From positions 62,001 to 126,000 of the forward strand of contig NZ_CP067132.1 of assembly GCF_028553745.1 (NCBI RefSeq): a stretch of DNA of 64,000 bases, given 5' to 3'. Numbering within the stretch: position 1 is the first letter of the stretch; every line of letters starts with the position of its first letter. A program made the position numbers and the translations under genes. Of this stretch, positions 30,497 through 56,014 are shown piece by piece. The notes under the pieces are model-generated. The model ran no database searches. It saw only the letters and a list, made by a program, of their open reading frames with translations, and was not told the origin of the DNA. The DNA comes from Paracoccus seriniphilus (GTDB lineage Bacteria > Pseudomonadota > Alphaproteobacteria > Rhodobacterales > Rhodobacteraceae).

Positions 30497-30557
30497 CATA
30501 TCCTCCCTCTTCCCATCACCGGCCAGATCGCCAGTGTCCTCCATGGGGTCACATATT

Positions 30558-30577
30558 AATTGAACATGTGATCAATT
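30558..30577. promoter_or_regulatory. Inverted repeat upstream of the acyl-CoA synthetase
   Basis: AATTGA (30558-30563) and TCAATT (30572-30577) flank ACATGTGA about 60 bases before the start codon, in an AT-rich stretch. The size and position suit a TetR- or MarR-type operator. No such regulator is encoded nearby, so a distant one would have to act here. Confidence 0.45.
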
Positions 30578-30643
30578 GTTGCAAGCGTTTCATCCCCGGA
30601 CAAGCCCATCCCGGCCAAAAACTGCTTGTATCGCGCGAATGTG

Positions 30644-30732
30644 CTGACCCGACCAAAGCAGGTCGGGGTCAGTTTCGTCGGAACGGTTCCGGATTGCATG
30701 ATAATAGCGGCCATTCACGCCTCTGGCGTGAA
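30644..30732 (-). terminator. Two stem-loops downstream of the ClC channel gene
   Basis: TTCACGCC (30714-30721) and GGCGTGAA (30725-30732) form an 8-bp hairpin about 28 bases after the ClC stop. CTGACCCGACC (30644-30654) and GGTCGGGGTCAG (30661-30672) form a second, with one bulged G, followed on the plus strand by TTT. A short stem CGGGCG/CGCCCG also spans the ClC stop codon itself. Together they probably end leftward transcription. Confidence 0.5.
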
Positions 30733-30759
30733 AGCCGCGCAGCATGAAGGACGCGGGCG

Positions 30760-32535: not shown

Positions 32536-32610
32536 GGCGGCTGGCTCTTGCTGATGAAAGGCCGCGCGCAGGGCGCGTTCCGTGATCGGGATCAGGCGGG
32601 CGGGAGGTAT

Positions 32611-33393
32611 TCAGGGCGCCTTCTGGGTCGATCTGCGAGTGAGGTCAAGCCAGCCAAGGGTATTTTCCGTCTTTCCAACCGGCTTGTATTCCGCGCCAAG
32701 CGCAAGGTCATAGCCCAATGCCGCAATGGTCGCGAAGATGTCCGCGTAATCGACCTCGCCATGGTCCGGGGCGCCGCGATCTGGGACCGAAGCAAACTGG
32801 ATGTGGCCGATCAGGGGCTGCAGATCCGTCAGGCGACGGGTCAGGTCGCCCTCCATGATCTGCACGTGATAGCAATCGAACATCAGCCGCAGCGCGGGAT
32901 GATCCACCTCGGCGATGATTGCCCGTGCCTGCTCGGTGGTTTGCAGGAAGTAGCCCGGCGCGTCATGGCGATTCAGCGGTTCGATCAGGATGGTGATGCC
33001 ATGGGGTGCGGCCTCGGCGCAGGCAAAGCGCAGGTTCGCGACAAAGCTGGCATGGGCCTCGGGTCCGGCCGAATATCCCGCCATGACATGCACTGCCCGG
33101 GTCTGCGTGGCGCGGGCATAGGCGATGGCCTCGGTGATGGCGGCGCGGGCCTCGACCTCGCGCCCGGTCAGGGCCGACAGCCCGTTGTCCCCTGCCCCGA
33201 CATCGCCCCGCCGGGTGTTCAATCCCAGCATCGGAAGACCTGTTTCCTCCAGTGCCGCGCGAACCTCGGCGGCTGGAACGTCATAGGGCCAATGGCATTC
33301 CACCGCATCGAACCCTGCAGCCTTTGCCGCGCGGATGGCGTCAGGCAGGCACAGGTCATTCCACAGAAAGCCCAGATTTGCAGAAAATTTCAT
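32611..33393 (-). CDS. otnI: 2-oxo-tetronate isomerase (hydroxypyruvate isomerase family)
   Basis: This TIM-barrel protein of 260 residues begins MKFSANLGFLWNDLCLPDAI. It shows the Hyi-family features FDAVECHWPYD, ILIEPLNRHDAPGYFL (metal Glu), MFDCYHVQI and EYKP. In the known four-carbon acid pathway OtnI converts 2-oxo-tetronate to 3-oxo-tetronate. Plain hydroxypyruvate isomerase is the alternative, but the otnK, otnC and ltnD neighbours decide for OtnI. The ATG at 33391-33393 overlaps the otnC stop by one base; it is the last gene of the operon. Confidence 0.88.
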   Translation of the reverse strand: MKFSANLGFLWNDLCLPDAIRAAKAAGFDAVECHWPYDVPAAEVRAALEETGLPMLGLNTRRGDVGAGDNGLSALTGREVEARAAITEAIAYARATQTRAVHVMAGYSAGPEAHASFVANLRFACAEAAPHGITILIEPLNRHDAPGYFLQTTEQARAIIAEVDHPALRLMFDCYHVQIMEGDLTRRLTDLQPLIGHIQFASVPDRGAPDHGEVDYADIFATIAALGYDLALGAEYKPVGKTENTLGWLDLTRRSTQKAP

Positions 33394-34037
33394 CAGTCCC
33401 ACTCGACATTGAAGGTTGTAACCAGATTCTTGATCTGGTTCTGGGTCAGCATGTTGGGGTTCATGCCACGGGTCATGATGGCCAGGCGGGCGGTGTCTTC
33501 CAGTTCTTCGATGGCATTGCAGGCGGCCTCGACATCGCGGGCGGCGACGACCGGGCCGTGATTGGCCAGCATCACGGCTGAACGCTTGCCCGCCAGGCCG
33601 CGCACCGCCTGCCCCATGGCCGGATCGCCGGGCAGGAAGAAGGGCAGCAGCTTCACCTTGCCCAGCTTCATGATCCCATAGGGCGTCATCGGTGGCAGGA
33701 AATTGTCAGGGTCCACTTCGGGCAACATCGACAGGGCGACCGAATGGCAGCTGTGCAGATGCACGACCGCCCCCGCCGTGGACCGCGTGTCGTAAAAGGC
33801 GCTGTGCAGCGGCATCTCCTTGGTCGGCGGATCGCCCCCGATCTGGCGGCCCGTGGCGTCGAACCGGCTCAGCCGTGCGGGATCCAGCCGGCCGAAGCTG
33901 GTGCCGGTCGGGCTGACCAGCAGCCCGCCATCCTCGGTGCGGGCCGAGACATTACCCGAAGAACCTCCGGTAAGTCCGCGATCAAACATGGATTTTGCCA
34001 ATAGACAGATTTGCTCTCGCAGCGCATTCTCGCTCAT
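33393..34037 (-). CDS. otnC: 3-oxo-tetronate 4-phosphate decarboxylase
   Basis: This class II aldolase/adducin-type protein of 214 residues has GLTGGSSGNVSAR, the zinc-binding HLHSCH and the later ANHGPV. In the pathway defined by OtnK studies it decarboxylates 3-oxo-tetronate 4-phosphate to dihydroxyacetone phosphate. The ATG at 34035-34037 overlaps the otnK stop by 4 bases; a longer open frame upstream lies inside otnK and is rejected. L-fuculose-phosphate aldolase is the alternative by family, not by context. Confidence 0.88.
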   Translation of the reverse strand: MSENALREQICLLAKSMFDRGLTGGSSGNVSARTEDGGLLVSPTGTSFGRLDPARLSRFDATGRQIGGDPPTKEMPLHSAFYDTRSTAGAVVHLHSCHSVALSMLPEVDPDNFLPPMTPYGIMKLGKVKLLPFFLPGDPAMGQAVRGLAGKRSAVMLANHGPVVAARDVEAACNAIEELEDTARLAIMTRGMNPNMLTQNQIKNLVTTFNVEWD

Positions 34038-35305
34038 GGCTGCAACCTTTCCAGCGCATCGGAAAAGAAGCTCTCCGCGCCGAAATTTCCCGATTTCAGC
34101 GTCAGTGCAACATCCTGTCCGGCCGAGCGACCAAAGCACCAGGGCACCCCCGGCGCGATTTCCGCCCCGACGTCCATGCGCGACACGCCAAGCGCGCGCG
34201 TCACCGCACCCGAGGTTTCACCCCCCGCCACGACGATGCGCTGCGCCCCGCGATCACGCGCCGCGACCGCACAGGCGGCCAGCGCCTCTTCCACGATCTC
34301 GCCGGCGCGGGCCACGCCCAGATGCTCTTGCGCGGCGCGGACAGACTGCGGATCGGCCGTCGCATAAAGGATCGGCGCGCGCGACAGGTCCTGCGCCCCC
34401 AGCCAGTCAAGCGCCGCCCTTGGGCCGTTTTGCGCCAACTCCAGCGGGTCCAAGCGCAGCCCCGGCGCGCCGCCTTGCAGATAGTGCGCCACCTGTCGGT
34501 TGGTCATGGCCGAGCAACTGCCCGAGAGCACCACCGCCCCCTTGTCCAGTTGCGGCGGCACCAGCCGGGGTGCATCTGCCGCCAGCGTGCCATTGGCCAG
34601 ATACAGCCCCGGCAGTGCCATTGCCAGCGCCGAGCCGCCGCTGATCAGCGCCATGTCGCGACAGGCCGTGGCAATGGCCGTCAGGTCACCATCGCGGATA
34701 GCATCGATTACCACATGCGCCCGGCCTGCCTCGGCCAGGGCGACCAAGGCCGCACGGATCGCCTGCGGGCCAGCTTCTACCACCGGATGTTCGACCAGCC
34801 CGACCGGCCCCGCGACCTGAGGGGCCAGCAGCCGCGTCAGATCGCTGTCGCGCATCGGAGTCAGCGGGTGGTCACGCATCGGGCTTTCTGCCAGCGGCTG
34901 ACGCCCCACGAACAGATTGCCCATGAATACCCGCCGGCCGTTTTCCGGGAAAGCCGGGCAATAGATCGTCTGCGACGCGCCCAGATCGGCCATCAGCGCC
35001 TGGGCCACGGGGCCGATATTGCCCTGCGGCGTGGAATCGAAGGTCGAACAGTATTTCCAGAAGAACCGCTGCGCCCCCGCCGCGCGCAGCCAGTCCGCCG
35101 CCGCCCGCGCCTGCTCGACGGCTTCACCCACCGGCAGGGTTCGTGTCTTCAGCGCAATCACCTCGAATGGCGCGACATCTCCGCCCGCCTCTTCCGATGG
35201 CAGACCCATATGCAGACGCACCCGCACCCCAGAGCGTGCCAACAAGCCGGCAAGATCCGTCGCCCCCGTGAAATCATCCGCTATGCAACCAAGTACAACT
35301 GTCAT
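34034..35305 (-). CDS. otnK: 3-oxo-tetronate kinase (DUF1537/four-carbon acid sugar kinase)
   Basis: The 423 residues start TVVLGCIADDFTGATDLAGLL, with the DDFTGA sugar-binding motif (10-15) of the DUF1537 kinases. The C-terminal half has the nucleotide-binding VVAGGETSGAVTRALG. OtnK phosphorylates 3-oxo-tetronate at C4 with ATP. It stands between ltnD and otnC in the typical order. The start at 35305 has no strong competitor. Confidence 0.92.
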   Translation of the reverse strand: MTVVLGCIADDFTGATDLAGLLARSGVRVRLHMGLPSEEAGGDVAPFEVIALKTRTLPVGEAVEQARAAADWLRAAGAQRFFWKYCSTFDSTPQGNIGPVAQALMADLGASQTIYCPAFPENGRRVFMGNLFVGRQPLAESPMRDHPLTPMRDSDLTRLLAPQVAGPVGLVEHPVVEAGPQAIRAALVALAEAGRAHVVIDAIRDGDLTAIATACRDMALISGGSALAMALPGLYLANGTLAADAPRLVPPQLDKGAVVLSGSCSAMTNRQVAHYLQGGAPGLRLDPLELAQNGPRAALDWLGAQDLSRAPILYATADPQSVRAAQEHLGVARAGEIVEEALAACAVAARDRGAQRIVVAGGETSGAVTRALGVSRMDVGAEIAPGVPWCFGRSAGQDVALTLKSGNFGAESFFSDALERLQP

Positions 35306-35354
35306 CCGTCGATATCCTTTGTTTCCCGCACTCCTGGCGCCGGGTCGTTCCGGG

Positions 35355-36245
35355 CTAGCCTTCGCCCGGCAGGGTCAGACCGGCATTGCGGGCATAGACC
35401 TTGGCAACGGCGGCATCGTCTTCGCCGCCCAGCCCCATTCCGGCTGCAGCGAGGAACTGCTGCAATGCCGCCGCGGTCAGAGGCGCGCTGAAGCTGGAAG
35501 ATCTGGCAATATCCAGCACGATACCCAGATCCTTGGGCCAGATATTGACCGAGCTGTGGGGTGTATAATCGCCTGCAACGACATGGGGCGCGCGGTTTTC
35601 CAGCATCCAGCTGGTGCCCGCGCATTTGCTGATCACCTCGACGAATTTTTCCGGTGCGACGCCCTGGGTCATGCCGAAGGTCAGGGCCTCGGCCATGGCA
35701 GCGATATGGACCCCGGCCAGAAGCTGGTTCACCGCCTTCATCGCCGATCCGGCTCCGACCTGGTCGCCCAATTCGAACACGGTTTCGGCGATGGCCTCCA
35801 GCAGGGGGCGGGCGGCATCAAAAGCAGCGGCGCTGCCCGACGCCATGATCGACAGCTGTCCATTCGCAGCCTTCACCGACCCGCCCGAGATCGGGGCGTC
35901 CAGATACAGAACCTCGGCTTCGGCGCAACGCGCGGCCATCTTCCTTGCAAATTCCGGCGGCACCGTGGCGCAGGACAGCACCACCGCCCCGGGACGCAGA
36001 TGCGGCACAATGCCATTTTCGCCAAACAGCACGGCCTCGGTCTGGGCGGCGTTCAGCACCACCACGGCCACCGCGTCCAGCGCGGCCTCGGCCATGTCAG
36101 AAGCTTCTGCTCCTTCCCCACGCAGACGTTCCACCTGGGTCTGATTGATATCCGCGCCCCAGACCCGCAGACCGGCGCGCAATGCCGAAGCCGCAATTCC
36201 ATATCCCATCGAGCCAAGCCCGATCACTCCAATATTCCTGGACAT
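35355..36245 (-). CDS. ltnD: L-threonate dehydrogenase-like (beta-hydroxyacid dehydrogenase family)
   Basis: The 296 residues begin SRNIGVIGLGSMGYGIAASA (NAD loop GLGSMG), followed by YLDAPISGGSVKAANGQLSI and a GSAMKAVNQLL segment carrying the catalytic lysine, typical of the 3-hydroxyisobutyrate dehydrogenase family. LtnD oxidises L-threonate, and relatives D-erythronate, to 2-oxo-tetronate, the substrate of OtnI. The ATG at 36243-36245 is preferred over one 15 bases upstream (36260), since the protein then begins at the cofactor strand. otnK follows after 49 bases, and the TctA gene precedes it by 60 bases. Confidence 0.88.
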   Translation of the reverse strand: MSRNIGVIGLGSMGYGIAASALRAGLRVWGADINQTQVERLRGEGAEASDMAEAALDAVAVVVLNAAQTEAVLFGENGIVPHLRPGAVVLSCATVPPEFARKMAARCAEAEVLYLDAPISGGSVKAANGQLSIMASGSAAAFDAARPLLEAIAETVFELGDQVGAGSAMKAVNQLLAGVHIAAMAEALTFGMTQGVAPEKFVEVISKCAGTSWMLENRAPHVVAGDYTPHSSVNIWPKDLGIVLDIARSSSFSAPLTAAALQQFLAAAGMGLGGEDDAAVAKVYARNAGLTLPGEG

Positions 36246-36305
36246 GCTGTCTTTCTCCATTCTGTGTGTGATGATCGGGGCGCCGCAGAAGCCGCGCCAC
36301 CGCAA

Positions 36306-37790
36306 TCAGTTTCGTGCGGCGCGCGCCTTGGCGATCAGCGGCCAGACAATCACCGCCAGCGTGATTGCAAAGAACAGATCGACAATCGGGCTGGCCAGAA
36401 AACGCAGCGGCTGCATGTCGGTGATGATCAGCCCCTTGCGCAGGCTCTCCTCGAAGGGCTGTCCAAGGATGAAGCCGATCACGATGGGCGCCAGCGGCAC
36501 ATGGGCAAAGCGCAGCAACAGCCCAAGGACACCGGCAAGCAGGGTCACCCACAGATCAATCATGCTGAAGCGCGTGACATAGGACCCCGCCAATGCCAGC
36601 GCCAGAACGCCGCCCATGATCAGCGCATGGGGCAGTTTCAACACCCGGCTGAACATCTGCGCGGCCAGAGCCCCCACGATCAGCATCATCACGTTCGCAA
36701 CGAGCAGGGCCACGAAGACGAAATTCACCAGATCCGGGCTGCCCTGGAACAGGTTCACGCCCGGCGTGATGCCATGCACGACCAGGGCGCCCAGCATGAC
36801 CGCTGTGGCTGCATCACCAGGAATGCCCAGGGCCAGCGTCGGCACCAGCGCACCACCGGTGACAGCGTTATTGGCGGCCTCGGAGGCCACGATGCCTTCC
36901 GGATTGCCCTTGCCGAAGGTTTCGGGAGTTCTGGCCGAGGAACGCGCCTGCGCATATCCGATCAGCGACGCGGCTGTCGCCCCGACGCCGGGCAGAATGC
37001 CCAGGAACGTCCCGATCAGCGAACTGCGCAGCATTGTCTTGCGCACGGCCTTCCATTCCCGCCATGGCGCAACCTTGAAACCGGCCGAGATCACCTTTCC
37101 CGTGACCCCCGCGACCGGTTGCGCAGCGGCTGCAAAGACCTCGGACAGGGCGAACAGCCCGATCAGGATCGGCACCACATGCAGGCCTGCGGACAATTCG
37201 AAGTTGCCAAATGTGAAACGCTCGGCCCCGCTGAGCGCATCGATCCCGACCGTCGACAGAACGATCCCGATCAGCCCCGCCAGCAGCCCCTTGAGCGGAT
37301 TGCCGGCCGAAACCCAGGCGATGGTGGTCAGCGAAAAGACGATCAGGGCGAAGGTCTCGATCGAGCCGAATTTGACCGCGACCTGGGCCAGCTGCGGGGC
37401 CAGGAACATCAGCACCACCATCGAGAAGACGCCGCCGATGGCAGAGGAAACCGTCACCCAGCCCAGTGCCTCGGCCGCCTTGCCCGATTGCGCCATTGGA
37501 TAGCCGTCCAGCACCGTTGCCGCCGATTGCGGGGTTCCCGGCACATTGATCAGAATGGCGGGGATCGATCCGCCATAGACCGAGCTGACATAGATCGCGG
37601 TCAGCATCCCGATGGCCTGTGTCGGGCCGAGAACAAAGGTAAAGGGCAGGACGATGGCCAATGCCGTCACCGTGCCCAGTCCTGGCAGAGCCCCCACGAT
37701 CATGCCAAGGAAGGTCGCCAGAAACATGATTGCAAGCGTGGTCAGATCGGCCTGCATACCGAATGCTGCGGCAAGAGACGTAAAATCCAT
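36306..37790 (-). CDS. TTT transporter large permease TctA
   Basis: The 494 residues have about eleven or twelve membrane helices and the TctA signature motifs GALPGLGTVTALAIVLPFTF and its second-repeat partner GILPGVGATAASLIGYAQA, plus YGGSIPAILINVPG. It forms the transport channel with TctB and takes substrate from the periplasmic TctC. Being in one leftward operon with ltnD and otnKCI, it probably imports a four-carbon acid sugar or its sulfated form rather than a tricarboxylate. It begins 3 bases after the TctB stop. Confidence 0.92.
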   Translation of the reverse strand: MDFTSLAAAFGMQADLTTLAIMFLATFLGMIVGALPGLGTVTALAIVLPFTFVLGPTQAIGMLTAIYVSSVYGGSIPAILINVPGTPQSAATVLDGYPMAQSGKAAEALGWVTVSSAIGGVFSMVVLMFLAPQLAQVAVKFGSIETFALIVFSLTTIAWVSAGNPLKGLLAGLIGIVLSTVGIDALSGAERFTFGNFELSAGLHVVPILIGLFALSEVFAAAAQPVAGVTGKVISAGFKVAPWREWKAVRKTMLRSSLIGTFLGILPGVGATAASLIGYAQARSSARTPETFGKGNPEGIVASEAANNAVTGGALVPTLALGIPGDAATAVMLGALVVHGITPGVNLFQGSPDLVNFVFVALLVANVMMLIVGALAAQMFSRVLKLPHALIMGGVLALALAGSYVTRFSMIDLWVTLLAGVLGLLLRFAHVPLAPIVIGFILGQPFEESLRKGLIITDMQPLRFLASPIVDLFFAITLAVIVWPLIAKARAARN

Positions 37791-37793
37791 GAC

Positions 37794-38255
37794 TCAGAAC
37801 TCCAGCCCGGGAATGGTCGGCAAGGGCAGCGCGGCGAATTTGACCAACAGCAGATAGGTTGCCACCGGCACGCCCATGGCCAATCCGATCAACGGCACTG
37901 GCTTGCGATATCCAAGGATCAGGCAGCACAGCAGAACCGCCAGTGGTACGATCAGCAGATAGCCTGCGGCCTGAAACAACAGCACCGTCACCACCAGCAA
38001 CAGCACCATCAGGCAAGCCGGACCCCATCTCGTTTCGCCGATCTGAACACCACCGCGCAGGATGCCCTTGATCAGGATTGCCAGTGAGAGCGCCAGAGCC
38101 GCATAGAGGGCCAGCTGCGCCACCAGAAAGGGCGGGGCATCCCCGGGCAGCAGGAATACATTGCTGCTGCTATGATAGCTGTTGCGCAGCAGGATCACTG
38201 CTGCCAGCGCAAAGAAACCGCCCAGCAGCGTGTCCGAATTCACCAACCGTTTCAT
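37794..38255 (-). CDS. TTT transporter small permease TctB
   Basis: This 153-residue membrane protein has four predicted helices and the TctB pattern: DTLLGGFFALAAVILL at the start, YLLIVPLAVLLCCLILG and the C-terminal LLVKFAALPLP. It is the obligate partner of TctA. It sits between the tctC and tctA genes of the module, 27 bases after tctC. Confidence 0.88.
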   Translation of the reverse strand: MKRLVNSDTLLGGFFALAAVILLRNSYHSSSNVFLLPGDAPPFLVAQLALYAALALSLAILIKGILRGGVQIGETRWGPACLMVLLLVVTVLLFQAAGYLLIVPLAVLLCCLILGYRKPVPLIGLAMGVPVATYLLLVKFAALPLPTIPGLEF

Positions 38256-38282
38256 GGATGCCCTCCCCCGTGTTGCTTTTGC

Positions 38283-39230
38283 TCAGTCCCTGGCTTTGAC
38301 CCCGATGGTGGGCAGCAATTCGCGGCTGCGCGCGTATTCCTGTTCATAGAAGTCGGCGAAGGCAGTGCGATCCAGATAGCGCAGGGTGTAATTGGCTGCA
38401 GTCATGCCCTTGACGAAATCCGGGTCCTCGACCGCGCGCCCGCAGGCGCTGGACAGCTGGTCCAGCACTTCAACCGGCGTGTCCTTTGGCGCGAACAACC
38501 CGAACCAGACCGACAGCGATACATCGTGGCCCAGTTCCGCCAGGGTCGGCACATCGGGCAGCATGTCCGTCCGTTCAGCCGAGGCGATTGCCAGGGCCTT
38601 CAGATCATATTGCGACACCATGGCCGCCGCATCCGCCGCAAGCGTGGCCTCGCCGCCCAATAATGCCGTGGCCGCCTTGCCGCCACCACCTGCGGGCAGA
38701 TAGGTGAATGTCACGCCATAGGCATTTGCCAGCGCCGCCTGGGTGATATGGGGCATGGATCCGGGGGCACCACCCACCGCGATGATCTGTTCCCCGGCCC
38801 TGGCCGCGTCTATCAGCTCCTGAATCGAGTTGTATGGGCTGTCCGGGGCCACCGAAATTGCGGTCGGATTGTCCGCCACCATGCAAACCGGTGCCAGGCT
38901 GGTCTCGTCATAAGGCAGCGGGCGCAGGTTGGGTTGAACCGTCACCGTGGCAATCGGCGCATAGCCGATGCGGTATCCATCCGGTTTCGACCGCGCCATC
39001 TGGGCAATCCCGATGGTGCCGCCGGCCCCATCCACGTTGATCGGCACCAGATCGGCATCCATCGCCTTGCGCATGGCGTTGATCAGCAACCGACCCGACG
39101 TGTCCGAATTGCTGCCAGCCCCGAAAGGCACGATGACCTCGATGGGCTTTTCCGGATATTCGGCCAGTGCCGCGGTTCCTGCGGTGGCGGCAATCAATGC
39201 CGCGCCGCTCAGAAGCCTTGAAATCTTCAT
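38283..39230 (-). CDS. TTT transporter substrate-binding protein TctC (Bug family)
   Basis: A Sec signal peptide (MKISRLLSGAALIAATAG, cleaved near ALAEYP) precedes a Bug-type periplasmic protein with the family phrases YPEKPIEVIVPFGAGSNSD, GAGGTIGIAQMARSKPDGY and PYNSIQELIDAA. Length is 315 residues from the ATG at 39228-39230, behind GGGAGGAACGGGA; the longer upstream frame is rejected. It catches the substrate for TctAB. The sulfatase gene ends 20 bases upstream and the catabolic genes follow, so the ligand is probably a C4 acid sugar or its sulfate ester. Confidence 0.92.
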   Translation of the reverse strand: MKISRLLSGAALIAATAGTAALAEYPEKPIEVIVPFGAGSNSDTSGRLLINAMRKAMDADLVPINVDGAGGTIGIAQMARSKPDGYRIGYAPIATVTVQPNLRPLPYDETSLAPVCMVADNPTAISVAPDSPYNSIQELIDAARAGEQIIAVGGAPGSMPHITQAALANAYGVTFTYLPAGGGGKAATALLGGEATLAADAAAMVSQYDLKALAIASAERTDMLPDVPTLAELGHDVSLSVWFGLFAPKDTPVEVLDQLSSACGRAVEDPDFVKGMTAANYTLRYLDRTAFADFYEQEYARSRELLPTIGVKARD

Positions 39231-39250
39231 TCCCGTTCCTCCCTGAAGTT

Positions 39251-40756
39251 TCAGTTGTTTGTCACTTCGTCGCGTTCGCGCGACCATTCGATCTGGATGA
39301 TGTCCACCTTGGGCGATGGCGGCCATCCGTCGCCGCGCTGCGAATTCAGGCTGCGATGAGGGGCCCATTTGTATTCACGATCGGGCTTGCCAATCAGTGC
39401 GCCGTCCCTGATCCAATCCAGATCGACGCCATACATCTGGCCGATCAGCAGATCCTGCAGCCGTTTCAACGTTGCGGCATGGGCCGGATCGGTCGCCAGA
39501 TCGGTCATCTCATGGGGGTCGTCGATCAGGTCGAACAGCTGGCTGTGATTGCCCGTCGGGTAGTAGACCAGCTTGTAGCGCTCATCGCGGATCATCCGGC
39601 TGGCGTGGTCATCCTCGCCACATTCGCCATAGATGAAGTCGCGCTTTTCATCACCCACCATGGATATCCCGTCCACGGTCTCGGGAACCGGAATGTCGCA
39701 CAGATCCAGAAGCGTCGGCATGACATCGGCAAAGCCGACGAGGCGGTCATCCACCACGCCTTCGCGGGCCTTGGGGTTGCCCTTGTTTGCCATCAGGATC
39801 ATCGGAATATTGGCGCTGCTTTCATAGAAGATGCGCTTGGCTGCCATATCGTGATTGCCCAGCATGTCACCGTGATCCGAGGTGAACATGATGATGGTGT
39901 CGTCCAGAATGCCCTCAAGCCGCAGCGTGCCGATCAGATAGCGGATCTGATAGTCGATCTGTGTGCACAGCGCGTAGAAAGCCTTTTTCGCGGCCAGCAA
40001 CTGCTGTTCCGAATACAGGTTGGTGCGGCTGAGCTGAGCCTGGATCGCAAAGGGACGCCGCGCCGGATCGCGAGCCCAGTCCCCGACATAGGGCGGGTCG
40101 ATCTCGACATCGCGATACAGATCGACAAAGGCCTGCGGCGGCACCAGCGGCGGATGCGGATGGCGGAAGCCCAGATACCAGAAAGCCGGTTTCGTGGGGT
40201 CACGCCGCTTGATCGTGCGTGCCATCATCCGGCCCGCCCAGGATGTCGCGTGATGCTGTTCGTCCAGATGCCAGGGCCGCCAGTTATACTGGTTGTTGGA
40301 CATGCCATGGTCGAACTGACGTCCGGCAAGCCCTTGATCGCCAAGATAGATATCGTAGTCGTCCAATGTGCCCCACTGCGGACGACCCTCATCGTCCAGC
40401 AGAACGGAATCAAAGCCGATACGGTCGCGCTGCGGATGAACATGCAGCTTGCCCACGGCATCGGCCTGATAGCCGGCATCGCGGAAGGCCTGGGCCATGG
40501 TGGTCACATCAGGCATGTTCAACTGGTCATTGAACACCCTGTCGCCATGGCTGCGCGGCACCTGCCCCGTCATCAGCGTGCGTCGCGCCGGGATGCAGAC
40601 CGGGCATTCGGAATAGGCATTGGAAAAGCGCGTGCCGACGGCGGAAATCTCGTTCAGCCCCGGCGTGATGATCGCAGGATTGCCCGCAAAGCCCAAATGC
40701 TCGGCCGCCCAGTGATCGGTGCAAATCAGCAGTACGTTCGGTTTCTTGGCTGTCAT
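39251..40756 (-). CDS. Cytoplasmic sulfatase, cysteine type
   Basis: The 501 residues open with NVLLICTDHWAAEHLG, giving a metal-binding Asp. The sulfatase signature follows: C54-I-P-A-R58 then RTLMTG, where C54 would become formylglycine. Later come GKLHVHPQRD and TSDHGDMLGNHDM with more metal ligands. There is no signal peptide, so it cuts sulfate esters in the cytoplasm. It is the first gene of the eight-gene run sulfatase-tctC-tctB-tctA-ltnD-otnK-otnC-otnI and diverges from a LysR regulator. The gene order suggests a sulfated four-carbon acid as substrate. No formylglycine-generating enzyme is encoded in the window. Confidence 0.92.
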   Translation of the reverse strand: MTAKKPNVLLICTDHWAAEHLGFAGNPAIITPGLNEISAVGTRFSNAYSECPVCIPARRTLMTGQVPRSHGDRVFNDQLNMPDVTTMAQAFRDAGYQADAVGKLHVHPQRDRIGFDSVLLDDEGRPQWGTLDDYDIYLGDQGLAGRQFDHGMSNNQYNWRPWHLDEQHHATSWAGRMMARTIKRRDPTKPAFWYLGFRHPHPPLVPPQAFVDLYRDVEIDPPYVGDWARDPARRPFAIQAQLSRTNLYSEQQLLAAKKAFYALCTQIDYQIRYLIGTLRLEGILDDTIIMFTSDHGDMLGNHDMAAKRIFYESSANIPMILMANKGNPKAREGVVDDRLVGFADVMPTLLDLCDIPVPETVDGISMVGDEKRDFIYGECGEDDHASRMIRDERYKLVYYPTGNHSQLFDLIDDPHEMTDLATDPAHAATLKRLQDLLIGQMYGVDLDWIRDGALIGKPDREYKWAPHRSLNSQRGDGWPPSPKVDIIQIEWSRERDEVTNN

Positions 40757-40862
40757 CCGTGCCTCCTGTTCGTGGTTGCAGGTCTCTAGCGCGAATTGCA
40801 GTCATGCCTATAATGATATATTTGCGCTTATAATTTCTGTTTTGGAAACTTTGAGGGCAAAG
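40757..40862. promoter_or_regulatory. Divergent promoter between sulfatase operon and LysR gene
   Basis: The 106 bases include an AT-rich core with TATAA at 40820-40824 and again at 40840-40844, 20 bases apart (direct copies around GATATATTTGCGC). The arrangement between a LysR gene and its divergent target is where such regulators bind. No exact T-N11-A inverted repeat could be fixed by eye. Confidence 0.45.
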
Positions 40863-41780
40863 ATGAGCAATCGTGTCGGCCTGCGCCAGCTTCGCGCCTT
40901 TCATGCCGTGATGATGGGAGGCAGCCTGACAGCCGCGTCAGAGCGGCTGAACCTCAGCCAGCCGACCATCAGCAAGCAGTTGACGGCGCTGGAAAACGCC
41001 TTGCAGATCAAGCTGTTTGACCGACGCAGCGGCACGCCGGTCAGTCCGACGCCAAACGGAGTGGAATTTTTCAAGGCGATCGAGGCGACGATTTCCGGGC
41101 TGGACAACCTGGGGGCAATCGCGCGCGACATTGCAGGTCATGGACGCCGGCGCATTCGCATTGCCGCGACGCCGCCGGTGCTGAACAGCCTGCCCTTCAC
41201 CTCGGGGCTGTCGCGATTCACGCTGAAAAACCCCGACATCCAGATCGCGCTGGAGGCGCGTTCGCGGGTCGAAATCGAGGATTGGGCTGCCAGGCAAGAG
41301 ATTGACCTGGCCTTTGCACTCTTGCCGTCATCCAACTCGGCCCTGCTGGCCGAACCCCTTCTGGACACCCGCGCCGTGGCCGTCATGCATCGCGACCACC
41401 CGCTGGCAGGGAAGCCCATGATCAGCCCCGCAGACCTGACCGGTCAGCGCCTGATCCTGCCCAGCCGGCAATTGCTGCGCTCGCGTATCGACACGATTCT
41501 GGAACGTGAAGGCCATCAGATCGCGGCGGACATCGAATCGTCTTCGGCCAACACCTGCTGCCGGCTGGCCCTGGCGGGAGCCGGAGTCGCCATTTGCGAC
41601 CCTTTCAGCCCGACGGCCTATCCCACCGAAGATCTTGTCGTGCGGAACTGGGAACCGGCGGTGCGCCTGACTTATGGCGTCATCCGCCATAAAGGCAGCG
41701 AGCAGGAACCAACGACCCAGTCGCTGCTGGCCATCATGCGCTGTGCATTGGGCAATTTCGCCCTGCCCCTGTCCGGCTGA
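40863..41780 (+). CDS. LysR family transcriptional regulator
   Basis: The 305 residues start VGLRQLRAFHAVMMGGSLTA, with the winged helix ASERLNLSQPTISKQLTALE, followed by the two-lobed co-inducer domain. The ATG at 40863 follows GAGGGCAAAG; the longer upstream frame overlaps the divergent sulfatase and is rejected. It should activate the divergent sulfatase-TTT-otn operon in response to the substrate or an intermediate. Its end converges with the second sulfatase gene. Confidence 0.9.
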   Translation: MSNRVGLRQLRAFHAVMMGGSLTAASERLNLSQPTISKQLTALENALQIKLFDRRSGTPVSPTPNGVEFFKAIEATISGLDNLGAIARDIAGHGRRRIRIAATPPVLNSLPFTSGLSRFTLKNPDIQIALEARSRVEIEDWAARQEIDLAFALLPSSNSALLAEPLLDTRAVAVMHRDHPLAGKPMISPADLTGQRLILPSRQLLRSRIDTILEREGHQIAADIESSSANTCCRLALAGAGVAICDPFSPTAYPTEDLVVRNWEPAVRLTYGVIRHKGSEQEPTTQSLLAIMRCALGNFALPLSG

Positions 41781-41792
41781 AACCTCGCAGGA

Positions 41793-43334
41793 CTACGCCA
41801 CGCCGCTTGGCGGATCAAAGCTTGTCAGCTCGACACCCGGACGCGCCCTCAGCAGGGCGACAAGCCGCGCCTGCAGATCTGCGGCGGCAGGATCATCCCA
41901 CAGGTTGTTCATCTCGTCGGGATCATTCGTCAGGTCATACATTTCACCGGCGCCGGATTGCAGTTCGACCGTCAGCTTGCTGTCGCCGGTATGGACGCTG
42001 CGCAGATCCAGCCTGACCCCGCAACGCGAAGGCGAGACGTCCCATTCGGCATAGACAGCCTCATGCGCGCCGCCCTGCCCCTCCAGCGCGCCGCGCATCG
42101 AAACGCTTTGCGCATCGTCGGGCATCTGCGTGCCCGCATAGTCGCAAAAGGTCGCGGCCAGATCCAGCGTCGTGGCCACATCGGTCACCGTGCTGCCCGG
42201 CGCAATCCCCGGTCCGCGCGCGATCATGCCGACATTCAGCAGGGAATCGTAAAGGATAGGGCCTTTCAGATACAGCCCGTGATCGCCCATGTAATCGCCG
42301 TGATCCGAGGTGTAGATCACGATGGTATCCTCGGCGAGTCCCTCATCCGCCAGGGCCGCCATGATCCGCCCGACATTATGGTCGATCAGGGAAATCATGC
42401 CGTAATAATTGGCCGTCATGTCGCGCAATTGCTCGTCGCTCTGATCGGGAATCCGCGTGCCCTGCTTGCGGAATTTCTTGAACAGCGGATCGTCAAGCTG
42501 CGGCTCGCCCTCCAGCGAGGCCCTGTGCCACCATGGCCGCCGGTCCAGATCCTTGGTCCGATGCGCGGGAAGATCGACCTCATCCCTGTCGTGCAGGCGG
42601 CTCCAGGGTTCGGGGCAGTCAAAGGGATGATGCGGATCCGGCAAGGACAGCCACAGGCAGAAGGGCTTGCTCTCATCGCGTTTGTGCAGCCAGCGCAGCG
42701 CCCGGTCCGTCGCCCATGTTGAACTGTGCCAGGCCACTGGCAGCGCCGAGCTCCATGTCTGGGCCGCACCCGTACCGGGGCGGGTCTCGTCCTTCCACAG
42801 GTCAAAGGCATCTTTACCGCCGACCGTATCAAAGAACCATTTTTCGTAGTGCTGGCCGTTTGGCGGCGTGATCGGGGGGCGAAACTTGTGCCAATGCCCC
42901 TGCGTGACCAGTTCGACATGGTCAAACCCCATGTAAGGGCCATGCCAATCGGCGGGGTAATCTGCCGAACCCGATTTGCATTCGGGGTTCTGGCGTGGTG
43001 CGAAAGTCTGGGTCGAGGCAAAATGCGCCTTGCCGATCAGCGCCGTTGCATAGCCCGCCTCGGACAATTGCCGGGCGAAGCTGCGATTTCCGATCTCGGG
43101 GCGCAGATCGATGCCATTGTCCTTGACGCCATGGGTCTTGGGCAGCTTGCCGGTCAGGATCGAGGCCCGCGCGGGCTGGCAGACCGGCGCCGGGGTGATG
43201 CAGGTCGGCGCATGGACGCCTTCGGCCCGCAGCCGGTCCAGATGGGGTGTCTTGACCCGCCTCCCGGCGAACCCATAGCAATCGGCGCGCTGCTGGTCAG
43301 AGGTAATGAAGACGATATTGGGACGCTTGGACAC
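41793..43334 (-). CDS. Cytoplasmic sulfatase, cysteine type (second module)
   Basis: The 513 residues begin SKRPNIVFITSDQQRADCYG (metal Asp). The signature C52-Q-P-A-R56 then ASILTGKLPKTHG marks C52 for conversion to formylglycine, and VIYTSDHGDYMGDHGL gives further metal ligands. There is no signal peptide. The start codon is GTG at 43332-43334, directly after the TctA stop codon, which signals coupling. It is the last gene of tctC-tctB-tctA-sulfatase, so its substrate should be the sulfate ester imported by that TTT system. N-terminal wording resembles choline-sulfatase/iduronate-sulfatase-like enzymes, but I cannot fix the substrate. Confidence 0.92.
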   Translation of the reverse strand: MSKRPNIVFITSDQQRADCYGFAGRRVKTPHLDRLRAEGVHAPTCITPAPVCQPARASILTGKLPKTHGVKDNGIDLRPEIGNRSFARQLSEAGYATALIGKAHFASTQTFAPRQNPECKSGSADYPADWHGPYMGFDHVELVTQGHWHKFRPPITPPNGQHYEKWFFDTVGGKDAFDLWKDETRPGTGAAQTWSSALPVAWHSSTWATDRALRWLHKRDESKPFCLWLSLPDPHHPFDCPEPWSRLHDRDEVDLPAHRTKDLDRRPWWHRASLEGEPQLDDPLFKKFRKQGTRIPDQSDEQLRDMTANYYGMISLIDHNVGRIMAALADEGLAEDTIVIYTSDHGDYMGDHGLYLKGPILYDSLLNVGMIARGPGIAPGSTVTDVATTLDLAATFCDYAGTQMPDDAQSVSMRGALEGQGGAHEAVYAEWDVSPSRCGVRLDLRSVHTGDSKLTVELQSGAGEMYDLTNDPDEMNNLWDDPAAADLQARLVALLRARPGVELTSFDPPSGVA

Positions 43335-44849
43335 TTAACTTGCCTCTTGGATTGAGCTTGTTGTCTCGCGGCGCAGCGAACGGGCGCGGAAGAACATCGC
43401 CAGCACACCCAGCAGCAGGAAGCCCGCCGCAATCGGCCGTTCGAGGAAAATCATCAGCCCGCTGTCGGACAGGCGCAAAGACTGGCGCAGGGCCTCTTCG
43501 GCACCACCGGCCAGCACGAAGGAAATCACCAGCGCGGGCGGGTTGAAATCGAATTTCCGCATCAGCCAGCCCAGGATGCCCGCCGCGATCATCACCGCGA
43601 CATCGAACAGGCTGCCATTGGCCGAATAGGCCGAGACAAAGGCCGTCAGGAAAATCAGCGGGTAAAGGACACGGGTCGGCACTTTCAGGATCAGATGGCC
43701 GACACGCGCCGCGCCGAAATATCCGATCAGCCCATAGCTGGCGATGCCGAACAGACCGGCAGCGAACAGGCTGTAGACCAGCTCGCGCGAGGTCAGGAAC
43801 AGGGTCGGCCCGATCTGAATGCCGTGGATCAGGAAAACCCCGATCAGGATGGCGCCAATGGTCGAACCGGGGATGCCCAGAGTCAGCAGCGGTGCCATGG
43901 ACGGTCCCGACACCGCGTTATTGGCAGCCTCGGGCGCGGCAACGCCTTCCAGCGCGCCTCGGCCCCATTCCTCGGGGTTGCTGGCCCGCCGTTTGCCCTC
44001 GCCATAGGCCACAAAGGAGGCAATGGCCGAACCCAGTCCGGGCAGCATGCCGATAAAGGCCCCGATGAAGGAAGAGCGCACGATATGGGGCAGACAGCGG
44101 CGGAATTCGGGCCAGCTGAGATGATTTCGGGTTTCGGCGGCAGCGTCATGTTCTTCGGGGAAGGCCTCGATCTTGCCGGGCTTGCTTTCAAGCTGCGTGA
44201 AGACCTCACCCAGCACGAATATCCCGATCATCAGCGGTACAAGGGAAACCCCGCCGGACAGGTCGAACAACCCCAGCGTCATGCGATCCTGCGAGGTAAT
44301 CGGGTCCAGCCCCACGGTCGCCAGAACGATCCCCAGAGCCGCGCTGGCCAGCCCTCGCGTGACGGATTTGCCAATGACCGATCCGATGACGACGAACGCC
44401 GCGAAATAGACTGCAAACAGCTCGGGCGGCCCCATGGTCAGTGCGATCCTGGCGATATAGCCGACAAAGACGATCAGCAGCAGATCACCGATGAAATCAC
44501 CGATGACGGATGAAATCGTGGCGATTTTCATCGCCTTGCCCGACATGCCCCTTTGTGACAGCGGATAGCCGTCCAGTTGGGTGGCTGCGCTGGCGGCCGT
44601 TCCCGGCGTGTTGAACAGGATCGCCGCGACCGATCCGCCGTAACGTCCTGATTTGCCAATGACATACAGGAAGGCCAGGGCGCTGAGCGGGTCCATGTAA
44701 TAGGTCACCGGCAACAGCATCGCGATGGCTGCAGCGGCGGTCAGACCCGGAATGGCCCCCACCACCATGCCGATCAGAGCGGCCGCGACAATCCAGAACA
44801 ACAGCGCCGGTGACGTTGCCACCGTCGCAATTCCTGCAAAGATATCCAT
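43335..44849 (-). CDS. TTT transporter large permease TctA (second module)
   Basis: The 504 residues have about twelve membrane helices with GAIPGLTAAAAIAMLLPVTY, YGGSVAAILFNTPGTAASAA and GMLPGLGSAIASFVAYGEGK, the paired TctA motifs. It is clearly different in sequence from the first TctA in this window, so the modules are not a recent duplication. It works with the TctB and TctC encoded just upstream and lies directly against a cytoplasmic sulfatase gene. Confidence 0.92.
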   Translation of the reverse strand: MDIFAGIATVATSPALLFWIVAAALIGMVVGAIPGLTAAAAIAMLLPVTYYMDPLSALAFLYVIGKSGRYGGSVAAILFNTPGTAASAATQLDGYPLSQRGMSGKAMKIATISSVIGDFIGDLLLIVFVGYIARIALTMGPPELFAVYFAAFVVIGSVIGKSVTRGLASAALGIVLATVGLDPITSQDRMTLGLFDLSGGVSLVPLMIGIFVLGEVFTQLESKPGKIEAFPEEHDAAAETRNHLSWPEFRRCLPHIVRSSFIGAFIGMLPGLGSAIASFVAYGEGKRRASNPEEWGRGALEGVAAPEAANNAVSGPSMAPLLTLGIPGSTIGAILIGVFLIHGIQIGPTLFLTSRELVYSLFAAGLFGIASYGLIGYFGAARVGHLILKVPTRVLYPLIFLTAFVSAYSANGSLFDVAVMIAAGILGWLMRKFDFNPPALVISFVLAGGAEEALRQSLRLSDSGLMIFLERPIAAGFLLLGVLAMFFRARSLRRETTSSIQEAS

Positions 44850-44852
44850 GGG

Positions 44853-45347
44853 TCAGAATCCCTGAATGACGTCCAGCAGGTCGAACCACGCGCCATAAGG
44901 CGGGAACACCCCAAGCCCGACAAAGAAGACAAGATGATAGATCAGCGGACACAGCACCGCCGCGACAAGCATCGCAACGGGCGAGCGGACCCCGAACAGC
45001 ATCAGGGTCAATGGCGCACAAGCCGCCGTACCGATCAGGTAACCGAACAGCGTGATCGCGATCAGATACAGAATGGCCAGACCGCACAGCAGCAGCACCG
45101 GCAGCATGTCACGCAACCGTGGCAGATCGCGTTGCGCCAGCGGAATGCGGATCGCATTCACGGTTTGAACAAGGCCAAGCCCGAAGATGGCCCCGCCACC
45201 AGCAAGCGGAAAGACCCGCGGCCCGATTCCGCCCTGTTCGGTGATCTCGATGTCCAGTGCGAATTTCAGCACCAGCGCGCCGATCACGATCATCGCCAGC
45301 CCCGACACGGAATCCCGCGTCATCAGGCCCTTCGCCGCGCCCGTCAT
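44853..45347 (-). CDS. TTT transporter small permease TctB (second module)
   Basis: This 164-residue membrane protein has four predicted helices and a TctB-like layout: SGLAMIVIGALVLKFALDIE, the PRVFPL element and a C-terminal hydrophobic pair. The start overlaps the tctC stop by 4 bases, and the tctA start is 3 bases from its stop, the usual tctCBA order. Confidence 0.88.
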   Translation of the reverse strand: MTGAAKGLMTRDSVSGLAMIVIGALVLKFALDIEITEQGGIGPRVFPLAGGGAIFGLGLVQTVNAIRIPLAQRDLPRLRDMLPVLLLCGLAILYLIAITLFGYLIGTAACAPLTLMLFGVRSPVAMLVAAVLCPLIYHLVFFVGLGVFPPYGAWFDLLDVIQGF

Positions 45348-46300
45348 TTCAGCGACTGGATGACCGGCATCACGGCATCCCGCAGTTCGGTCAGGCGTCC
45401 CACGCTGGCAGGACCGTCCAGATAGGCCGGCAACAGTCCCTGCACGGCCATGTCCTTGGCAAATTCGGGACTGCTGACGGTCTCATGCAAGGCCGCCATC
45501 AACGTCCGGGAGGTTTCATCCTTCAGGCCGTTGGGGGCGTGCAGCGTGATGGGGGTATCAATGAATTCATAGTTATAGCCCTGCTCGGCCACGGTCGGCA
45601 CATCGGTCTGCAGCGCATAGCGTTGCGGTGCCACCAGCCCCAGGACGCGCATCTGCTGTTCAAAGCCCGCGGCCTGGTGGATTCCGATCACCGCGAAATC
45701 GACCTGCGAGCCGATCAGCGCGGCGCGCACCTTGCCGCCTCCGGCAAAGGGGACATCCGTCGCCGCAAGTTCATTGGCGTCCAGCAGGCTTTGGCCGGCG
45801 ACATGCAGAAAGGCTCCGCGTCCGGTATGTGCCCAACGCAGGCTGCCCGGTGCCGCGCGGGTCGCGTCGAACAGATCCGCCAGGGTCTGATAGGGGCTGT
45901 CGAAGGGCACCGCCACCGCAGCCTGCAGGCTGCCGGCCTGCCCCAGAGTGGCGATATCGTCGAATGGATCTACCGGAATGGATTTGAACAGGGCACCCAT
46001 GACCAGCGCACCACCTGTCGTTACCATCAGTGTCAGGCCGTCAGGGCGCGCTCTGGCAAGCTCGGCCGCGCCATTCACGCCCCCGCCGCCAGGTTTGTTC
46101 ACGACATTGACCGGCACGCCCAGCCGTTCGCGCAGGCCCGTCGCCACGGCACGGCCATAGGCATCGGTGCCGCCACCGGTGGGGAAAGGCACGATCAATG
46201 TGACGGGTCGCCGCGGACGCCATTGCGCCTGCGCCACACCCGGAGCCGCGGCGATGCCTGCCAGCGCGGCAGCCGCTTTCAGAAAATTCCTGCGTTCCAT
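45344..46300 (-). CDS. TTT transporter substrate-binding protein TctC with Tat-like signal
   Basis: This Bug-family protein of 318 residues has the phrases RPVTLIVPFPTGGGTDAYGR, NKPGGGGVNGAAELARARPDG and PYQTLADLFDATRAAPGS. The N-terminus MERRNFLKAAAALAG carries a twin-arginine motif (RRNFLK), so it may be exported folded by Tat. The first module's TctC has a plain Sec signal. The ATG at 46298-46300 follows GAGGAGAGGC. It is the first gene of the second module and diverges from a LysR gene. Confidence 0.9.
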   Translation of the reverse strand: MERRNFLKAAAALAGIAAAPGVAQAQWRPRRPVTLIVPFPTGGGTDAYGRAVATGLRERLGVPVNVVNKPGGGGVNGAAELARARPDGLTLMVTTGGALVMGALFKSIPVDPFDDIATLGQAGSLQAAVAVPFDSPYQTLADLFDATRAAPGSLRWAHTGRGAFLHVAGQSLLDANELAATDVPFAGGGKVRAALIGSQVDFAVIGIHQAAGFEQQMRVLGLVAPQRYALQTDVPTVAEQGYNYEFIDTPITLHAPNGLKDETSRTLMAALHETVSSPEFAKDMAVQGLLPAYLDGPASVGRLTELRDAVMPVIQSLK

Positions 46301-46435
46301 GCCTCTCCTCCCCATAAGGCCCCGATACCCTCTCAGGGTATCCGGCTTGAGGGATGTTATTGCCAGAACCCGACATGTTCGTATATTTCAAAGTAACGAT
46401 CATATGTTGCTTATTTTCGAACAAAGGCGGATGGC
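46301..46435. promoter_or_regulatory. Divergent promoter of the second TTT-sulfatase module
   Basis: A 135-base gap lies between tctC and a divergent LysR gene. The right half (46375-46420) is AT-rich, with TTCGTATATTTC and, further on, TTATTTTCGAA; TTCG and CGAA stand as an outer inverted pair. A LysR binding site and both promoters should be here, but exact boxes could not be settled. Confidence 0.4.
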
Positions 46436-47344
46436 ATGAACATCAAGGGGCTGCGCGCCTTCAATCTGGTGATGCAATTGGGCACCCTGCGGGTCGCCGC
46501 CGAGAAGATGAACACCAGCAATTCCGCGCTCAGCCGGCAACTGTCGGTTCTGGAGCACGAGCTGGGCCTGCAATTGTTCCATCGCAACAAGCAGCGCCTG
46601 ATCCCGACGCGCGAAGGGCTGGCCTTCTATCGCGAAGCGCAGGTGATGCTGGAAAACCTGGAACGCGTGCCCGAGATCGTCCAGCATGTGCGTGAAGGCA
46701 CCCATCACCAGATCAAGGTGAATGCAATCCCGCGGCTGGGCACGGTGATCGCGATTCCGGCCACCGCCCAGTTTCTGAAACAGCATCCCGAAATGCATGT
46801 TGTGGTGAATGCCGACACCCGTCGGGTGATGGAACGATCCGTCGCGGGCAATCAGTTCGATCTGGGCGTCGGACCCCTGCCCGCCAGCAATCCCGATCTG
46901 CGCACCGAGGTTCTTGGTCGCATTCCGCCCATGGTCGTCATGTCGCCCGATCACCGGCTGGCCAGATTCGACCGCGTGCCACCCGCAGAACTGCAGGGCG
47001 AGCAATTCGTGCGGATCACCTCGAACCTGCTGATCGGAGAGCAGGTCGAAGAGCTGTTCGCCGCCTATGATCTGGCACCGCCCAGCCAGGTCAAAGTCGC
47101 CAATACCATGCTGGCCTGCGCGCTGGTGGCCGAGGGCTATGGCATTACCATTGCCGATGCGCTCAGCCCCTTGATCTTTCGCGACGAGGTGCTGTGCCGC
47201 CCGCTGGACACCGACGAATGGCTAAGTTTCGGGTTGTTGTTTCCCCCAGCGCAGGAACGCAGTGATGCGGTGGACAATCTGGTGACGATCTTCAGGAAGA
47301 CCGCCGAGGTAATGCTGGCCCAACTGCAGCAGAAAATCGGGTAG
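46436..47344 (+). CDS. LysR family transcriptional regulator
   Basis: The 302 residues begin MNIKGLRAFNLVMQLGTLRV, with the winged helix (EKMNTSNSALSRQLSVLE) and a co-inducer domain ending near IFRKTAEVMLAQLQQ. The ATG at 46436 is preceded by AAAGGCGG. It is divergent from tctC of the second module and is therefore its likely regulator. Its stop lies next to the convergent NTase-fold gene, 3 bases apart. Confidence 0.9.
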   Translation: MNIKGLRAFNLVMQLGTLRVAAEKMNTSNSALSRQLSVLEHELGLQLFHRNKQRLIPTREGLAFYREAQVMLENLERVPEIVQHVREGTHHQIKVNAIPRLGTVIAIPATAQFLKQHPEMHVVVNADTRRVMERSVAGNQFDLGVGPLPASNPDLRTEVLGRIPPMVVMSPDHRLARFDRVPPAELQGEQFVRITSNLLIGEQVEELFAAYDLAPPSQVKVANTMLACALVAEGYGITIADALSPLIFRDEVLCRPLDTDEWLSFGLLFPPAQERSDAVDNLVTIFRKTAEVMLAQLQQKIG

Positions 47345-47347
47345 CCG

Positions 47348-49089: not shown

Positions 49090-49098
49090 GGGTATTCC

Positions 49099-51695: not shown

Positions 51696-51768
51696 GACGC
51701 CCCCCTTTTGAAGGCCATGGCCGAGGTTGCAGTGATTTGCAAAGTCTTCAACGCATCATATTGTTTTA

Positions 51769-51783
51769 TGGCAATGTTTGCCA
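51769..51783. promoter_or_regulatory. Palindromic operator candidate for the FGGY kinase operon
   Basis: TGGCAA (51769-51774), TGT, TTGCCA (51778-51783) is a perfect 15-base inverted repeat about 75 bases upstream of the kinase start. Nearby on the minus strand, ATATGAT can serve as a -10. The size suits a LacI, GntR or DeoR regulator, none of which adjoins this operon. Confidence 0.5.
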
Positions 51784-51826
51784 GGCATTGGACAGCACCG
51801 CCAAACGGTATTGGAGCTTTGCGGAC

Positions 51827-51859
51827 TGCAGATGCGCGACCCCGCGCATCTGCATTTTT
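51827..51859 (+). terminator. Strong hairpin with T-run between the kinase and arylsulfatase operons
   Basis: TGCAGATGCGC (51827-51837) and GCGCATCTGCA (51844-51854) form a perfect 11-bp stem with a 6-base loop, followed by TTTTT on the plus strand. It lies just beyond the stop of the leftward arylsulfatase gene. The T-run is on the plus strand, where no gene leads in; leftward reading meets the stem preceded by AAAAA. It likely still separates the two leftward operons. Confidence 0.6.
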
Positions 51860-51869
51860 CGCGCCGGGA

Positions 51870-54137: not shown

Positions 54138-54163
54138 GGTTCAATGACCTCCGTTACGGATAG

Positions 54164-56003: not shown

Positions 56004-56014
56004 GATTTTTCCTA

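Follow-up and report, generated by a model that had tools for sequence, protein, structure and literature searches.

Why should a bacterium place a sulfatase gene at the head of an operon that otherwise looks built to import and break down a four-carbon sugar acid? The question is raised by a window of 64,000 nucleotides from Paracoccus seriniphilus (contig NZ_CP067132.1, forward-strand positions 62,001 to 126,000; its genome is G000 in our numbering, where G numbers denote genomes and L numbers the loci of sulfatase relatives). Here one sulfatase gene, three genes for a tripartite tricarboxylate transporter (TTT) and four L-threonate genes all lie on the minus strand and are transcribed from 40756 down to 32611. 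The best answer, in our opinion, and one that we hold with slightly better than even confidence, is that the TTT system imports a sulfate ester, that the sulfatase, here called SulfA, desulfates it, and that the product enters L-threonate catabolism.

The eight genes and the L-threonate route

The operon and its presumed control region comprise the following features.

40863..41780, plus strand: LysR_A, LysR-type regulator divergent from the operon (PF00126, PF03466)
40757..40862, no strand: presumed promoter region shared by LysR_A and the operon, 106 bp between divergent starts
39251..40756, minus strand: SulfA, type I (formylglycine) sulfatase of 501 aa with C54-x-P56-x-R58 (PF00884, 139 bits)
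38283..39230, minus strand: TctC_A, TTT periplasmic binding protein (PF03401, 156 bits)
37794..38255, minus strand: TctB_A, small TTT membrane subunit between TctC and TctA (PF07331, 25.5 bits, below the cut-off of 29.1)
36306..37790, minus strand: TctA_A, large TTT membrane subunit of a sulfatase-linked TctA clade (PF01970, 487 bits)
35355..36245 (or 36260), minus strand: LtnD, L-threonate dehydrogenase (NF043037, 422 bits, cut-off 350)
34034..35305, minus strand: OtnK, 3-oxo-tetronate 4-kinase (NF043035, 528 bits, cut-off 350)
33393..34037, minus strand: OtnC (NF043034, 289.5 bits, cut-off 250)
32611..33393, minus strand: OtnI, 2-oxo-tetronate isomerase by best match (NF043033, 275 bits, below the cut-off of 325)

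The initial annotation had described eight genes on one strand with gaps of at most 60 bases and several overlaps, and this holds, with every gene at the position given and the overlaps numbering two (4 bases for OtnK/OtnC and 1 base for OtnC/OtnI). The spacings are 20 bases from SulfA to TctC, 27 from TctC to TctB, 3 from TctB to TctA, 45-60 from TctA to LtnD and 49 from LtnD to OtnK; the ATG of TctC_A is preceded by gggagg, and OtnI starts at an ATG at 33393 or, alternatively, at a GTG at 33402. Of the separate promoter and terminator between the sulfatase and tctC that the annotation had named as a finding that would undo its proposal, no terminator emerged: our scan of 30500-47400 gave no terminator-like match between any of the eight genes, although across the whole region such matches stood at chance level (11 against a mean of 11.8) and a promoter scan likewise did no better than chance. 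Rfam and tRNA scans of the window returned no matches.

What does the catabolic half of the operon consume? The LtnD-OtnI-OtnK-OtnC set is complete and adjacent, LtnD, OtnK and OtnC exceed curated NCBIfam cut-offs, and LtnD is the sole gene of G000 above the cut-off for L-threonate dehydrogenase. D-erythronate is oxidised by a different dehydrogenase. The presence of LtnD with OtnI, the pairing of the four-step L-threonate route (PMC12540250, in excerpt), points to L-threonate over D-erythronate. The earlier proposal had allowed either acid; its L-threonate half stands, whereas D-erythronate has been dropped as first choice and erythronate is not favoured as the substrate on these gene assignments.

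How widely is this arrangement kept? A scan of genome contigs gave 351 SulfA relatives, from which the best 80 loci (56-96% identity) were retained, and neighbouring genes were judged within the fetched stretches, many of them short. The initial annotation had set store by a conserved sulfatase-tctCBA-otn order, and this stands in part: the order is intact in L013 and L016, and these are only two of the 80 loci. In L011 it is altered, running SulfA, a TTT of another type (clade B, below), an alpha/beta hydrolase, a TauE/SafE-type exporter, ltnD, otnK, otnC, otnI and a second sulfatase; in L015 SulfA is followed only by a decayed otnI with stops (38% identity over 118 of 263 residues), which we rejected as a functional linkage. 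The SulfA rows of L016, L013, L011 and L015 fall in one clade of seven rows (support 100/100), and a LysR_A relative, 53-57% identical, is divergent from SulfA in L011, L013, L014, L015 and L017. SulfA itself is rare, occurring in 12 of 394 family genomes and two of 385 class genomes (E <= 1e-120), and in two of 61 relatives (E <= 1e-80), its own genome included throughout. Among plasmid records, six have otn matches of 73-78%, none of which covers 80% of the query at a single site, and the best near-full-length SulfA relatives are 51-55% identical.

A sulfatase-linked importer

What, then, might the importer carry? Within the TTT trio TctC and TctA score above their profile cut-offs and TctB, though below, is in the expected position. 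TctC_A is 39-62% identical to TctC proteins of the same type beside SulfA (outside P. onchidii), and 24-33% identical to the other TctC proteins of G000 where a match was found. A first TctA tree was built without repeats (L097, L103, L117-L119, L125, L140, L149, L150), without matches that contain a stop and without those under 300 residues; in it the window's copy lies in a clade of 15 rows (support 99/97), and all 13 other TctA proteins of G000 lie outside it. An enlarged tree, which added TctA proteins found by sequence alone and left out also L012, L017, L022-L024, L047, L060, L098, L107 and L108, returned the clade with 17 rows (99/96); 16 are in SulfA clusters and one (G563) is beside another sulfatase match (33% to the neighbouring sulfatase SulfB) and a formylglycine-generating enzyme (FGE) gene, a tally to be read with the fact that most rows were chosen for lying near SulfA. 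Clusters from both of the deep SulfA lineages are represented in the clade. In addition, we surveyed 80 genomes of the family (family and class here being the taxonomic ranks of the sampled genomes), namely 11 that carry SulfA and, in list order, the first 69 that lack it (E <= 1e-115): members of the clade were present in five of the former (G434, G543, G563, G619 and G730) and none of the latter, and hits from SulfA-less genomes (G428, G430, G455 and G475) fell elsewhere in the tree.

This clade evidence favours the import of an intact sulfate ester and is the strongest new support for it. Indeed, the earlier suggestion that import is followed by desulfation emerges as the best reading, given a SulfA-TTT link in both SulfA lineages and a SulfA that looks intracellular. 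In G000 as a whole, a TctA lies no more than 4 kb from six of the 12 sulfatases, with one TctA counted for two of these, whereas random placement put a mean of 0.99 near a TctA and reached six in only one of 20,000 trials; the partnership of TTT with sulfatases thus looks like a habit of this genome, with the window's clade as its clearest case.

Is SulfA really a sulfatase? Its PF00884 score compares with a cut-off of 25, PF16347 matches as well, the C54, P56 and R58 formylglycine motif is kept in the alignment, and D14, C54, P56, R58, K103, H105, H201, D294, H295 and K307 are common to three other aligned sulfatases. An AlphaFold2 model (mean pLDDT 73) has the sulfatase fold; its best matches among solved sulfatases, 28-29% identical, are an Enterococcus arylsulfatase and BT1918. 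The score against the arylsulfatase family NF010322 (417 bits) is below its cut-off of 481, and an identity as choline sulfatase was rejected (TIGR03417, 199.6 against 433.45 bits). Reading the sequence, with no predictor run, revealed no obvious signal peptide and a sulfatase domain that begins at once, hence our view that SulfA looks intracellular. The one FGE of G000 (PF03781, 250.7 bits) is on contig C3; near SulfA relatives, FGE genes of at least 44% identity occur in L014, L059, L141, L143, L145, L147 and L150, in a search of 93 loci (a few of them repeats) plus the window. The L014 cluster runs FGE, TctC, seven-bladed lactonase, divergent LysR, SulfA, TctB, TctA.

Put together, these genes suggest a simple scheme. 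TctC, TctB and TctA would carry an anionic sulfate ester to the cytoplasm, where SulfA, matured by the FGE encoded elsewhere in the genome, would free sulfate, and LysR_A may sense the substrate. The organic product would be L-threonate or be converted to it, after which LtnD would oxidise, OtnI isomerise, OtnK phosphorylate and OtnC decarboxylate, giving dihydroxyacetone phosphate, as is established for these families. Either L-threonate (or threonolactone) sulfate would be consumed directly, or L-ascorbate 2-sulfate would be taken up and the freed ascorbate would reach L-threonate via steps outside the operon.

Ascorbate, lactones and rival explanations

Why bring in ascorbate at all? The initial annotation had offered an ascorbate-type precursor as an alternative idea, and this gains independent support from clusters in which SulfA relatives, 57-61% identical to the window's, adjoin L-ascorbate genes free of a phosphotransferase system (PTS), in L050, L037 and L086 and probably also in a fourth genome, G829, whose ascorbate set is on two contigs (L040 and L195). 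L050 encodes a UlaD-like protein (230 bits, cut-off 250), a UlaE-type L-ribulose-5-phosphate 3-epimerase above its cut-off, a UlaF-type L-ribulose-5-phosphate 4-epimerase above one subfamily cut-off, a phosphotriesterase (PTE)-like lactonase below its cut-off, a PfkB-type sugar kinase and a split transketolase; ascorbate genes of the other loci were assigned by tblastn against these. L086 holds on one strand a regulator, transketolase N and C parts, a UlaF-like gene, TctC, TctB, TctA and SulfA. UlaD was found in four of 41 SulfA genomes (a non-random set from 31 of the 80 loci plus 11 G genomes, in which G619 and G821 look like one) and, with the same query, in none of 385 class genomes (p = 7.5e-5), although two of the four are presumably gammaproteobacteria, so that the class sample corresponds to them only in part. 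The genes of these loci correspond to the ula route of UlaABC PTS, UlaG, UlaD, UlaE and UlaF (PMC3219644, in excerpt), with kinase and TTT genes replacing the PTS. Since L-threonate is a main ascorbate breakdown product in plants (PMC12540250, likewise in excerpt), the two independent contexts of SulfA, otn and ascorbate, converge on one small chemical family, and the gene neighbourhoods make a sulfate ester of the ascorbate/threonate family the most likely substrate.

Lactonases of unrelated types also recur near SulfA: PF10282 in L014 with a 32% relative in L060, an alpha/beta hydrolase in L011, metallo-beta-lactamase (MBL) folds in L022-L024 and L143, SMP-30 in eight Bryobacterales loci and PTE-like enzymes in the ascorbate loci. 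This recurrence, taken without a chance baseline, suits a lactone substrate such as ascorbate or threonolactone. The more ambitious proposal, to which we give rather less than even credence, is that SulfA and the TTT form a system dedicated to vitamin C-type sulfate esters (L-ascorbate 2-sulfate, L-threonate or threonolactone sulfate), one that feeds L-threonate catabolism here and an ascorbate pathway without a PTS in other genomes, the TTT clade being a class of sulfate-ester importers.

A good deal weighs against these ideas. A TctA is within the stretch at 12 of the loci L011-L024, the 14 with 75% identity or more, but at no more than 22 of all 80; the other 58, including Poribacteria, Latescibacteria and Acidobacteriota, have none. 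At the 22 loci the TctA nearest to SulfA belongs to the window's clade in 12, to clade B in eight (L011, L012, L017, L018, L022-L024 and L060, with L018 placed by best match only and the TctA of L012 some 7 kb away on the opposite strand) and to neither in two (L015 and L047), and six of the 11 surveyed SulfA genomes are without a member of the window's clade. Neither an otn set nor ascorbate genes accompany SulfA in the stretches of 73 of the 80 loci. LtnD above its cut-off is found in 104 of 394 family genomes with no association with SulfA at genome level (4 of 12 with it against 100 of 382 without, p = 0.39); it occurs in 14 of the 41 SulfA genomes, within the SulfA cluster itself only in G000, G812 (L013) and G815 (L016), which makes the SulfA-otn link a feature of one subclade with no general dependence. 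The ltnD of L011 (16336-17227) is in two frames, through a break or a sequencing error, and other LtnD genes above the cut-off exist in that genome. The ascorbate-linked SulfA relatives are, at 57-61% identity, not close to the window's, and other relatives accompany sugar ATP-binding cassette (ABC), tripartite ATP-independent periplasmic (TRAP) or short-chain dehydrogenase/reductase (SDR) genes, from which the SulfA family may be broader than one substrate. Finally, oxidising ascorbate 2-sulfate would leave the sulfate on a C2 fragment and a search with the L050 query gave no UlaD match in G000 at E <= 1e-15, so that in the ascorbate version threonate would have to arise by a route not visible here.

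Might the TTT and Otn proteins simply serve plain L-threonate, with SulfA a co-regulated neighbour that scavenges sulfate from an unrelated ester and no sulfated-tetronate pathway at all? We consider this unlikely, though less so than the other rivals. LtnD without SulfA is common, 77 of the 80 SulfA loci lack a full otn set in the stretch, SulfA and otn accompany another TTT type in L011, and in G455 a more distant TTT (TctA 49%) adjoins LtnD with no sulfatase match, which means that such importers may carry plain threonate. That TTT falls outside the window's clade, however, which among the sampled rows is confined to sulfatase clusters, and SulfA heads the operon, with tctC starting 20 bp after it, in an order that recurs in L013 and L016. 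The ester might instead be another sulfated sugar, sugar acid or polyol (a pentose, hexose or uronate) that feeds the tetronate pathway, with SulfA a general carbohydrate sulfatase. BT1918 (S1_46), among the close solved structures, is reported to be a gut-microbiota carbohydrate sulfatase, relatives in L082 and L059 have sugar ABC importer and SDR-type genes, and a module of lactonase, haloacid dehalogenase (HAD) hydrolase, aldolase and FGGY kinase is near SulfA in L143, with parts in L146, L148 and L089; yet all four catabolic genes of the operon are four-carbon acid genes, none of them a kinase, isomerase or aldolase that would handle a larger sugar, and we find the idea improbable. It is hardest to credit that SulfA is a phosphonate or phosphate monoester hydrolase of the sulfatase superfamily. 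Phosphonate monoester hydrolases have the same fold, turn up among the structure matches and also carry formylglycine, so that an FGE alone cannot decide between the two; even so, a PehA-type identity was rejected (NF045661, 154 against a 900-bit cut-off), SulfA relatives repeatedly have FGE genes and second sulfatases in their vicinity, and the L011 operon includes a TauE-type exporter.

Neighbouring clusters, known systems and meaning

What surrounds the operon? It adjoins a second TTT-sulfatase unit with its own LysR (41793-47344), absent from the initial annotation.

46436..47344, plus strand: LysR_B, divergent from the second unit (LysR-family matches)
43335..46315, minus strand: TctC_B (45344-46315), TctB_B (44853-45347) and TctA_B (43335-44849), open reading frames, TctA_B belonging to the second TctA clade
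41793..43334, minus strand: SulfB, second sulfatase and last gene of the unit (PF00884, 148.5 bits)

A SulfA unit with its own type of TTT is beside a clade B TTT and another sulfatase in L086 and L144 as well, and this pairing suggests related substrates for the two units. Further along the window, 48430-57614 holds on one strand a third sulfatase (755 aa, 51870-54137), a class II aldolase, a 2-hydroxyacid dehydrogenase, an FGGY kinase and an NMT1-type ABC importer, perhaps a further cluster for a sulfated substrate; 58985-62721, with a UxuA-type mannonate dehydratase, a GntR regulator and a GH2 glycosidase, is perhaps a uronate or glucuronide cluster. On the other side, a ClC-type channel gene (30760-32535) is on the operon strand 75 bases 3' of otnI, with no such match in the stretches of L011 and L013 and with the L016 stretch stopping at otnI.

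Other SulfA loci have companions of their own. A class II aldolase and an FGGY kinase are near SulfA in L143, L146, L148 and L089, with an MBL-fold lactonase in the first three and a HAD hydrolase in L143. Near SulfA, L015:12262-19327 has TctC-TctB-TctA, a PdxA-like gene that reaches 203 of the 583 bits needed for D-threonate 4-phosphate dehydrogenase, and two sulfatases in a row; this may be a second type of unit for a C4-acid sulfate. L011:2800-7900 is a second TTT operon, with a TauE-type exporter and an alpha/beta hydrolase of its own, and its TctA groups with that of the LtnD-adjacent TTT of G455.

How does the operon compare with known systems? Choline-O-sulfate utilisation (betC-type) joins uptake, desulfation and catabolism, as we propose here, and uses a cytoplasmic type I sulfatase, as predicted for SulfA; the difference is that SulfA is under the choline-sulfatase cut-off and that importer and catabolic genes are unlike. 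The bacterial four-step L-threonate pathway shares its four adjacent enzymes with the window, but as described in the excerpt of PMC12540250 it has no leading sulfatase or sulfatase-linked TTT. To the ula regulon the link is through SulfA relatives, which have UlaD-, UlaE- and UlaF-like genes and a lactonase beside them in L037, L050, L086 and G829; TTT genes (only TctC in the L037 stretch) and a sugar kinase stand at the place of the PTS and a PTE-like lactonase at that of UlaG, and the window itself is without a UlaD match. In S. termitidis the duplicated ula operon is noted to contain an inserted sulfatase gene, to which the excerpt assigns no function (PMC3219644). The TTT of Vibrio sp. 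C42 imports alginate oligosaccharides, so that a TTT can carry sugar-acid molecules beyond simple carboxylates, though the abstract names no sulfate ester or sulfatase (PMC13390454). Searches of the open-licence PMC literature gave no paper that, by title or start of abstract, describes a pathway for sulfated threonate, bacterial ascorbate sulfate or a TTT with a sulfatase; the initial annotation likewise knew of no described pathway for sulfated tetronates.

If the import and desulfation of a sulfate ester is what this operon performs, it would represent a way to catabolise sulfated C4/C6 sugar acids, and a natural type of substrate would be proposed for a sulfatase family that spans many phyla and has no assigned substrate. 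Some TTT systems would import sulfate esters, and sulfated ascorbate or threonate would be a real source of carbon and sulfur in the habitats of these bacteria.

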